From NCBI GenBank assembly GCA_021736215.1, contig JAIPGI010000006.1, forward strand, positions 1 to 64,000: DNA of 64,000 bases. The letters run 5' to 3'. The notes under the pieces were generated by a model. That model was not told the DNA's origin. It did no database searches and saw only the letters and a list, made by a program, of their open reading frames with translations. The DNA is from Candidatus Altimarinota bacterium (GTDB taxonomy: Bacteria > Patescibacteriota > Gracilibacteria > UBA4473). Shown in pieces: positions 2,749-56,449 of this stretch. The stretch's first letter is position 1. The number at the start of each line of letters is the position of its first letter. Both the position numbers and the translations under genes were made by a program.

Positions 2749-2923
2749 TTTTTATCTTAATTTCTACACCTAGAACATATCAAAAAATAGATAATGAGTA
2801 AAAGTATTTTTCTAAAGATCAACAAGACCATAAAGAAGTATTTCTACGGTGTAACATTTGTAACATTATGAATATTTGATAAAATTAAAATAAGCAAGTT
2901 AAAGGGTAGGAGTTCTACTGTCA

Positions 2924-2944
2924 CCGCCAGGAGAAGAGCCGTAT
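2924..2944 (+). repeat. 21-bp direct repeat of the tRNA-Ser 3' end and trailer, copy 1
   Basis: The sequence beginning CCGCCAGGAGAAG and ending GCCGTAT is identical to 3330-3350, where it covers the last bases of tRNA-Ser, its CCA and the start of the trailer. After it both copies continue with a related small hairpin (CACCCTTGTGGTG here, CCACCTTTTGTGGTGG after the tRNA). It could be a remnant of a lost tRNA copy, or one arm of an attachment-site pair. Confidence 0.85.
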
Positions 2945-3000
2945 GTCACCCTTGTGGTGGCAGGCGGTTCTTCTTTTGAAGAAAGGATTTGAACCTAGGT

Positions 3001-3049
3001 TCGATAATTTGTACTGAGGAGCTCTGCGACGAAGATACAAATACCTCGA
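3001..3049 (+). repeat. tRNA-linked palindromic element, Ser copy
   Basis: This 49-bp element is bounded by TCGA at both ends. Its arms are ATTTGTA and TACAAAT, with CTGAGGAG and CGACGAAG between them. Against the reverse complement of the copy at 56146-56194 I count 41 of 49 identical positions. The 48-bp versions beside tRNA-Asp share the same arms. It is preceded by AGGTTCGA, which resembles a tRNA T-arm. Confidence 0.8.
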
Positions 3050-3100
3050 TTTGTCCGCCTCAGGTGGACATGAGAGCATCCCTCTCTCCACCAAAAAATT

Positions 3101-11592: not shown

Positions 11593-11765
11593 ATAACCCG
11601 TCATTGTAAATCTACCGAAGGTAGATACAGCAATCTCTTTTTTTTATTAAGCACAAGGATGAGTTGATTCTTTTTGTTACGCTCCTCTTTTCTTCTCTCA
11701 TAATAAAAAGTCATTTACTTAGAACTTTTTCACTTGAATACCCCTTAAGTTCGGACCGACGGGAC

Positions 11766-11813
11766 TCGATAATTTGTACCGAAGAACGAAGTGACGAGAA
11801 TACAAATTCCTCT
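11766..11813 (+). repeat. tRNA-linked palindromic element, Asp copy 1
   Basis: TCGAT then AATTTGTA, 22 bp, TACAAATT and CCTC. It joins directly to the duplicated tRNA-Asp 3' end at the T-loop TCGA. The second copy is at 11954-12001. Confidence 0.8.
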
Positions 11814-11953
11814 ACTGTTTCGAGACGAAGGCGAGAAACAAGGACGAGTACCCGCGAGCGGGTTTGAAAGCCTACATACATAAAAAACGAGCCTTATACT
11901 CGTTCTTCTTTATTCATTCCCGCCAGAAATTATTCTGGCGGGACCGACGGGAC

Positions 11954-12001
11954 TCGATAATTTGTACCGAAGAACGAAGTGACGAGAATACAAATTCCTC
12001 T
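11954..12001 (+). repeat. tRNA-linked palindromic element, Asp copy 2
   Basis: Identical to 11766-11813 in the second 188-bp unit. The AATTTGTA and TACAAATT arms could form an 8-bp stem. Confidence 0.8.
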
Positions 12002-12069
12002 ACTGTTTCAAGACGAAGGCGAGAAACAAGGACGAGTACCCGCGAGCGGGTTTGAAAGCCTACATACAT

Positions 12070-12093
12070 AAAAAACGAGCCTTATACTCGTTC
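12070..12093 (-). terminator. Rho-independent terminator of tRNA-Asp
   Basis: On the minus strand GAACGAG, a TATAAGG loop and CTCGTT are followed by a T-run. It is repeated at 11882-11905 in the other 188-bp unit. Confidence 0.85.
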
Positions 12094-12123
12094 TTCTTTA
12101 TTCATTCCCGCCAGAAATTATTC

Positions 12124-12200
12124 TGGCGGGACCGACGGGACTCGAACCCGCGACCTCCGCCGTGACAGGGCGGCGCTCTAACCAGCTGAGCTACGATCCC
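12124..12200 (-). tRNA. tRNA-Asp (anticodon GTC)
   Basis: Acceptor GGGATCG pairs with CGGTCCC, the discriminator is G and CCA is encoded (12126-12124). The anticodon stem CCGCC/GGCGG encloses CTGTCAC, giving GTC. The T-arm is GCGGGTTCGAGTCCCGT. The encoded 3' end CCCGCCA also forms one side of a downstream palindrome CCCGCCAGAA/TTCTGGCGGG. Confidence 0.97.
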
Positions 12201-43204: not shown

Positions 43205-43450
43205 CGTTCAAAACCAACTTACTCGTATGATACATGCCTTTGTCCATACCAGTCAAACTTGTTTCGTACAAAAAGAGTCCCGTCAGGTAGCACGGGTCTG
43301 CCTCAGGCAGAAAGCAAAAGATTACCAGAGCAAGGCTATGAGAGGTTTTTCGGTCACTAGTCATGACCTGAAAAACCGGCAGGAAGTTCCACTCGATATT
43401 CTTGAGTTCTGAAGCTTCCATCGCCGGTTTTTCGTTATGTAAATGAATAG
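43172..43450 (-). ncRNA. Candidate structured RNA (minus strand) ending in a terminator
   Basis: On the minus strand a TATACT box (43454-43449) is followed by a long hairpin (GAAAAACCGGC at 43433-43423 with GCCGGTTTTTC at 43380-43370, with GGAAG/CTTCC inside). Then come GGTTTTTC...GAAAAACC, the hairpins CTGCCTGAGGCAG and CCCGT...ACGGG, and finally a perfect terminator. The first two hairpins share 43370-43377 and exclude each other. There is no coding gene at its end, so it may be a stand-alone RNA of about 270 nt. The family is unknown. Confidence 0.5.
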
Positions 43451-43505
43451 TATAGAGTATATCGTATATCGTATACTGTATTCAGTATTCAGTATTCAGT
43501 ATTTA
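43449..43505. repeat. TATTCAG-type heptanucleotide repeat
   Basis: GTATATC-type units pass into three exact TATTCAG copies. It lies between the YlxR stop and the candidate minus-strand RNA. Confidence 0.7.
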
Positions 43506-43507
43506 CC

Positions 43508-43640
43508 TTTTTGTTATTTCTTCTCTATTCTCTCTTCTCTCTTCTCTGACATCGCTTCTCGGATCTCTGTTCTCTGTTCTTTGCTCTCTCTTCTCTGATC
43601 CCTGATCTTTGATATCTGATATCTGATCTCTAATTCTCGT
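43508..43640. repeat. TCTCTTC/GATATCT-type heptanucleotide repeat in ylxR 3' end
   Basis: Degenerate 7-bp units (TCTCTTC, TGATCTT, TGATATC) form the 3' part of ylxR and encode its K/R/E-rich tail. The block resembles those at 13985 and 46681. Confidence 0.8.
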
Positions 43641-55720: not shown

Positions 55721-55939
55721 ATAAACTCCCTTATTTAAGGATTGATAATAGTTAATTAGTGAGATGAACTTTTTGGGATTAGCCGTAACTAAACACAAAA
55801 AGCTCACCTCACAGATTTATTTCACTTTGTCAAAGAACGCTTGAACAAACGAAAAACGATTGTTTTCTTTTGTTACTAAATCTCTTTAATATAAAAATTA
55901 AAAAATGGCAAGTATTATTGGTTCACACAACGGGATTCC

Positions 55940-56096: not shown

Positions 56097-56115
56097 TGGT
56101 ACACGCGACAGGATT
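56097..56115 (-). repeat. Duplicated tRNA-Arg 3' end
   Basis: Read on the minus strand this gives AATCCTGTCGCGTGTACCA, the last 19 nt of tRNA-Arg including CCA. The real tRNA end is at 56277-56295, 180 bp away. Confidence 0.95.
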
Positions 56116-56145
56116 CTCTCCTTACGCCTCGCTCTGCTCGTCTAC

Positions 56146-56194
56146 TCGAGGGATTTGCATCTTCGTCGTTTCACTCCTCAGTACAAATTCTCGA
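56146..56194 (-). repeat. tRNA-linked palindromic element, Arg copy
   Basis: On the minus strand TCGAGAATTTGTACTGAGG starts a 49-bp element ending CCTCGA. It is 41/49 identical to the copy upstream of tRNA-Ser. It is preceded by AAGGTTCGA, like a T-arm, and lies between the tRNA and the duplicated 3' end. Confidence 0.8.
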
Positions 56195-56205
56195 ACCTTG
56201 GTTCT

Positions 56206-56251
56206 CATCCTGTCATTCGCCGTGGCGAATAAGAAAAAATCCACGCCCCCT
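56206..56251. repeat. 46-bp direct repeat, copy 2
   Basis: Identical to 55940-55985. This copy retains the full terminator of tRNA-Arg to its right. Confidence 0.95.
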
Positions 56252-56273
56252 TTGGGGGTATGGATTTTTTCTT
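56231..56273 (-). terminator. Strong rho-independent terminator of tRNA-Arg
   Basis: On the minus strand AAAAAATCCATACCCCC, AAA, GGGGGCGTGGATTTTTT. It starts 3 nt after the tRNA CCA. Confidence 0.9.
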
Positions 56274-56276
56274 GTG

Positions 56277-56353
56277 TGGTACACGCGACAGGATTCGAAC
56301 CTGTGACCCTCGGTTCCGAAGACCGATGCTCTATCCAGCTGAGCTACGCGTGC
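56277..56353 (-). tRNA. tRNA-Arg (anticodon TCG)
   Basis: Acceptor GCACGCG pairs with CGCGTGT (G-T at the first pair), the discriminator is A and CCA is encoded. The anticodon stem TCGGT/ACCGA encloses CTTCGGA, giving TCG. The T-arm is CAGGTTCGAATCCTG. Confidence 0.96.
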
Positions 56354-56433: not shown

Positions 56434-56449
56434 GCTGAGCTACGCGTGC
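56434..56449 (-). repeat. Duplicated tRNA-Arg 5' end
   Basis: On the minus strand GCACGCGTAGCTCAGC, the first 16 nt of tRNA-Arg, is repeated 96 bp upstream of the gene and then diverges into CCGACAAATCGG and CCGCTCAAGCGG hairpins. It appears to be a broken second tRNA copy. Confidence 0.9.

Follow-up and report, generated by a model that had tools for sequence, protein, structure and literature searches.

The 3′ side of a tRNA-Asp gene in the 64-kb stretch of DNA analyzed here (the window) is occupied by a tandem array of 188-bp units, which raises the question of whether the array is a local oddity of one tRNA end or one site of an element family. The intact tRNA-Asp (GTC), with its CCA encoded, lies at 12124–12200 on the minus strand (ARAGORN; Rfam), and TRF reported a period of 188 bp, 2.1 copies and a 99% match at 11753–12145. 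In the tandem-repeat register the proximal unit spans 11941–12128 and the distal unit 11753–11940 (both minus strand; TRF and sequence), the former being shifted by 5 bases relative to the CCA-to-CCA unit at 11936–12123. As an earlier note on this DNA had claimed, the two units are nearly identical, with a single mismatch in 188 bases (position 11822, G versus A). The note had also placed a copy of the tRNA 3′ end in each unit. Both copies are present, but only the proximal one is complete: it is a 22-nt displaced copy of tRNA positions 55–76, TCGAGTCCCGTCGGTCCCGCCA, at 11936–11957 (minus strand), whereas the outermost copy (11753–11769, minus strand) is truncated and has lost the terminal CGCCA. 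The full terminator said to occur in each unit corresponds to hairpins at 12074–12092 (proximal) and 11886–11904 (distal), both assigned to the minus strand; the terminator scan scored the plus strand, and visual reading of the tRNA strand gave the T-run (AACGAG-TATAAGG-CTCGTT, then TTTT). The inverted repeat of the CCCGCCA end was likewise found, as a perfect 10-bp hairpin, CCCGCCAGAA/TTCTGGCGGG, at 12107–12130, where it takes in the CCA of the tRNA, and again at 11919–11942 (both minus strand). In this hairpin the CCA end of tRNA-Asp is paired to the trailer, a fold that could form in competition with the acceptor stem; a hairpin like it was not noticed at other tRNAs.

The copying of a tRNA's own 3′ end is common in these bacteria. 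We searched up to 450 bp downstream of each tRNA gene in the genome that contains the window (G000, 93% complete) and in a congener, a Candidatus Gracilibacteria MAG (G001); the compared genomes were metagenome assemblies or of unstated origin. Such copies follow 13 of 40 tRNA genes in G000 and 16 of 40 in G001, against 0.45 and 0.43 expected from the tails of swapped tRNAs of other types, and the observed 13 in G000 is too far above 0.45 for chance. These counts include a few cases of a GIY-YIG class that is taken up below, and after their removal 25 T-loop-type copies were left, of which 13 have T-loop position 59 as their exact start and 21 have position 76 (CCA76) as their last base. A sample of 50 tRNA genes at about 30 loci, mostly from other classes of the phylum, yielded one weak match. 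About one third of the tRNA genes in the two genomes carry T-loop units with a common anatomy. In the direction of the tRNA, the order is the CCA end, usually a terminator hairpin (often joined by a small GCGAAGC-type hairpin), an inverted T-arm, a T-stem 5′ strand carrying GGTTCG(A), a two-hairpin cassette that we call E, and positions 59–76, so that E lies inside the T-loop of a displaced T-arm. Units measure 118–301 bp, mostly 163–194 bp, and have no protein-coding capacity, with no plausible gene in any of them. On one side a unit adjoins the T-loop of a functional tRNA, and on the other a second, displaced copy of the same tRNA's 3′ end; because the unit's tRNA-adjacent end contributes positions 59–76 and a terminator, the tRNA keeps its function. 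The Asp array is not a local oddity but one site of a genome-wide element family.

To find E elsewhere, we used a covariance model, R1. Because a first MAFFT alignment of 12 mixed units had misaligned the hairpins, R1 was built from 11 units of one E subfamily, with Asp excluded; these 11 units are poorly aligned toward their 3′ ends. R1 matched both Asp units on the strand opposite to the tRNA, at 11936–12046 (plus strand, 49.4 bits) and at 11744–11858 (plus strand, 48.7 bits), placing the E cores at 11958–12037 in the proximal and 11770–11849 in the distal unit and indicating that both run opposite to the tRNA. The T-loop palindrome TCGA borders the inverted segment. On the far side of the inverted E are the T-stem 5′ strand copies (GCGGGT), at 12038–12043 and 11850–11855; the former makes a hairpin, P2, with its inverted partner (12038–12060, minus strand), and the distal unit has the equivalent at 11850–11872 (minus strand).

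In a matching test of the inverted T-arm (P1) on 31 units, some rows of which were placed by hand, the arm fitted its own tRNA better than others (permutation p<5e-5; outer four positions, p=0.0004). Of the cells in E and the hairpin next to it, 95.5% pair and 17 show double changes, compared with 6.4 in shuffled data (none of 500 shuffles reached 17); pairing was destroyed when the pattern was slid. Folded as a single strand, a unit would make the displaced T-arm double-stranded again, with E branching at the T-loop, as judged from the predicted pairing.

The earlier note had proposed repeated insertion at the tRNA end, and both the like anatomy at about one third of the tRNA genes in two genomes and the comparisons that follow support it. 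At tRNA-Glu(ttc), G000 is empty, while G001 carries two different units of 182 and 192 bp (374 bp), and the flank of the empty G000 gene aligns after the third 3′-end copy in G001 (83% over 162 nt); this is one aligned site in two species, not strains. tRNA-Asp itself has two units in one species of the genus and none in the other of the two compared. Arrays hold up to three units, and those at tRNA-Gln, Gly, Glu, Asn and Met are made of different units; near-identical pairs occur at tRNA-Lys and tRNA-Pro in G001. Whole units are common to Gln-ctg and Gln-ttg (94% over 177 nt, G001) and to Gly-gcc and Gly-tcc (91% over 175 nt in G000, 82% over 213 nt in G001). E is shared more widely, between Gly-tcc and Lys-ttt (52/52 nt), Arg and Thr (97% over 58 nt), and Gln and Glu (91% over 69 nt), with unrelated flanks in each pair, and at the orthologous Gln-ctg genes the terminator is conserved (91% over 78 nt) and E is different. 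At the level of sequence comparison, these results show that units insert, stack and spread between tRNAs with a common 3′ end, and that E passes between unrelated tRNAs.

The window contains two further sites. A tRNA-Arg (TCG) gene at 56277–56353 (minus strand; ARAGORN) is followed by a 180-bp unit at 56097–56276 (minus strand; R1, 91.5 bits), which has E in the normal orientation and terminates in the tRNA-Arg 3′ end (56097–56116); an older, decayed tRNA-Arg 3′ copy with 4 mismatches, belonging to the second unit of the array, lies at 55919–55938 (minus strand). At 2930–3094 (plus strand; R1, 96.9 bits), a unit without an attached intact tRNA is flanked by tRNA-Ser 3′-end remnants (CCGCCA before 2930 and ATCCCTCTCTCCACCA at 3079–3094), and an orthologous remnant is present in G001 (L153). 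Next to this relic, window positions 2800–2929 and the start of L153 share about 110 bp of non-coding sequence that is nearly identical in the two species, with no tRNA body left. Elsewhere in the window, 7-bp tandem repeats (GTATTCA, TCTTCTC and TCTCTGA) occupy 43449–43631, and a neighbouring permease had no relatives among the genome contigs searched. Copies of tRNA 5′ ends were also seen upstream of tRNA genes, at window positions 56434–56449 and at loci L011, L031, L042, L090 and L094; some come with a palindrome, such as CTGCCTGCCGGCAGGCAG, followed by 50–80 nt and then the intact tRNA. Upstream 5′-end copies were counted at 6 of 40 tRNAs in G000 and 8 of 40 in G001, with about 1.2 and 1.1 expected.

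In a wider survey, R1 gave 56 matches in 13 of 99 relatives, mainly of the same family, and with a stricter cut-off and filters it matched 10 of 353 genomes of the class; because R1 was built from one subfamily, other E subfamilies are under-counted in these figures. An intact tRNA or tmRNA adjoins the match at 23 of 30 fetched loci (22 tRNA, 1 tmRNA). Inspected by eye, most of the remaining seven are flanked by tRNA 3′-end remnants, L156 being too decayed for certainty. In the tmRNA case (L144 in G003, match 1501–1625), the element follows the tmRNA on its downstream side and terminates in a duplicate of the tmRNA 3′ end, indicating that tmRNA is also a target. A strict E-hairpin pattern had matched G000 alone in 60 relatives; it was too strict and was replaced by the covariance model. 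The exact E pattern was absent from the viral contigs searched, and the open-access literature searched gave no direct published description of a T-loop unit or a tRNA 3′-end duplication in CPR or Gracilibacteria. In G018, a stretch of 5 kb separating tRNA-Gln from a distant unit might be taken for an 'island', but it more probably marks where a second tRNA-Gln gene once stood, as two such genes lie 6.4 kb apart in G001. In G000, several contigs end (C17, C6, C5, C10) or start (C1, C13) at tRNA units or GIY-YIG elements, which points to multi-copy arrays as a likely cause of assembly breaks.

Taken together, the Asp array is probably one site of a family of miniature integrative elements that are non-coding, non-autonomous and targeted to the T-loops of tRNA and tmRNA genes. 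A unit would enter by recombination at the T-loop (TTCGA^A), its attachment site being E with the folded inverted T-arm, perhaps in the form of folded single-stranded DNA. The enzyme would be encoded elsewhere and act in trans; candidates are a Xer-type tyrosine recombinase, a Y1/RAYT-like transposase and a GIY-YIG nuclease, and G000 encodes two Xer-type recombinases and has three Y1 (PF01797) and twelve GIY-YIG matches. T-loop recombination, any part played by single-stranded DNA and the trans-acting enzyme are all inferred. Two parts of each unit speak against this reading, since the T-stem 5′ copy and the inverted T-arm require a mechanism foreign to standard integrase islands, and no circle, excision product or transcript was seen. 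Further units could stack by re-insertion at the regenerated T-loop, and unequal crossing over between 3′-end copies could add identical units, which may be how the second Asp unit arose. It is also possible, though doubtful, that the units represent a novel kind of miniature mobile DNA whose moving form is a folded single strand. The inverted T-arm would then be a double-stranded replica of the target T-arm with E branching at the crossover, so that each element would carry its own target-specific guide and could be re-addressed to any tRNA gene by a swap of E or of the arm.

Other explanations account for parts of these data. The units could be ordinary tRNA genomic islands (phage, plasmid or IME) shrunken by cargo deletion, since a restored gene with a displaced fragment is the layout of such islands (PMC4383910), for which T-loop insertion and tandem stacking are also known (PMC3146451, PMC1762012). 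Deletion would have had to produce the same internal anatomy at many tRNAs in several genomes, mostly within 163–194 bp, together with a conserved and covarying E, and no remnant of intermediate size of the T-loop unit type was seen at a T-loop; we therefore consider this origin unlikely. A further alternative is target-duplicating transposition, casposon-like or other, in which the unit would comprise only the terminator to E and the 3′-end copies would be 18-bp target-site duplications. Casposons target tRNA 3′ ends, and exact 18-nt copies of positions 59–76 are what such a process would leave. However, a tRNA-matched T-stem strand and an inverted T-arm inside the unit are unexplained by it, and no terminal inverted repeats were obvious by eye; the units do not combine such repeats with a duplication that explains all of the tRNA-derived sequence, and we regard this route as quite unlikely.

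A process confined to the 3′ end of tRNA-Asp could also be imagined, in which unequal crossing over or slippage duplicated the unit in tandem with no mobile element involved. The difference of 1 in 188 bases between the Asp units and the near-identical tandem pairs at tRNA-Lys and tRNA-Pro in G001 fit such a process, which leaves unexplained the presence of the same E at different tRNAs, the mixed-unit arrays and the tRNA-Glu insertion. We hold it to be very unlikely, and as a full account it is already contradicted. Even less probable is a vertically inherited RNA or regulatory structure that acts downstream of tRNAs (in processing, as a decoy or in attenuation) and does not move. The strong conserved structure with its covariation and the location adjoining a terminator would suit such a role, but orthologous tRNAs within the genus differ in the presence, number and type of units, the units lie after terminator hairpins and persist where no intact tRNA is left, and Rfam returned no family above cut-off except tRNA. 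Finally, copying through RNA, with reverse transcription from the CCA end stopping at modified A58 to leave 18-nt tails as in retroviral primer sites, is scarcely credible and was rejected for G000: the span of 59–76 does equal the length of a primer-binding site, but this 93% complete genome has no reverse transcriptase domain (PF00078; three other unit-bearing genomes have one), and the inverted T-arm and internal terminator are not explained by copying of a tRNA.

If miniature T-loop elements are indeed the explanation, a tRNA-targeted integrative element has been stripped to about 120–200 bp and, in a reduced genome, occupies about one third of the tRNA genes. The units would form a natural archive of insertions that followed one another at many sites in one genome, and the minimal DNA needed by a T-loop recombination system would become directly testable. 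They may also explain fragmented assemblies and tRNA pseudo-tails in Gracilibacteria.

Among the closest known systems are tRNA genomic islands, in which the tRNA gene is split on insertion and made whole by the incoming DNA, and the far end is marked by the displaced 3′ fragment (PMC4383910). Like the tRNA/tmRNA islands catalogued by Islander (sublocation II, the T-loop), the units restore the gene, displace the 3′ fragment and form tandem arrays (PMC4383910). An intact tRNA is accompanied by a displaced piece of itself that points the same way, and at tRNA-Glu(ttc), one site in two species, the inserted DNA accounts exactly for the difference between the filled and the empty site. By contrast, the units contain neither an integrase nor any other gene, fall short of multigene size (at least 2 kb in Islander), being 10–100 times smaller than islands at about 120–200 bp, and are found at about one third of all tRNA genes. 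Islander discards candidates below 2 kb, so at least this standard island finder is blind to units of this size class. The ssrA islands of Dehalococcoides also insert at the T-loop and stack in tandem, but are kilobase-scale, many with a serine recombinase module, and use one gene only (PMC3146451). Mycobacteriophage Ms6 has an attB core made of a tRNA T-loop and 3′ end containing TTCGAA, and an altered T-loop in attP retargets it to another tRNA-Ala gene (PMC1762012); it is a full phage with its own integrase and is limited to one tRNA type. Short non-coding hairpin elements are also found in the REPIN/RAYT system (PMC3116915), in which REPINs are moved in trans by a Y1 transposase, and the three PF01797 matches in G000 are a candidate link to the units; REPINs differ in being scattered between genes without a target gene fragment. 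The crossover target reads GTTCGAA or a close variant rather than the GTTRRRY core of integron cassettes (attC), and the T-loop units have no endonuclease reading frame of the kind expected of homing elements. Such frames do occur in the second class of element in the same genomes, in which tRNAs are broken in the D/anticodon region and the 5′ or 3′ half is restored, with a GIY-YIG gene or only a palindrome. GIY-YIG frames, flanked by the intact tRNA and by a displaced half of it (5′ or 3′) with a palindrome in place of the anticodon region, were found at L008 (tRNA-Ile), L032 (tRNA-Val, decayed), L016 (tRNA-Met) and L023 (tRNA-Pro), at L068, L096 and L098 in G001, and at L134 in G004; the element at L068 is in tandem. 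These apparent gene-half-restoring homing elements differ from the T-loop units in breaking the D/anticodon region, in often restoring the 5′ half and in carrying a GIY-YIG reading frame. They resemble them in restoring one tRNA half and leaving the displaced half with a palindrome (tRNA-Ile, Pro, Met and Leu), and the GIY-YIG class is in this logic a relative of the T-loop units.
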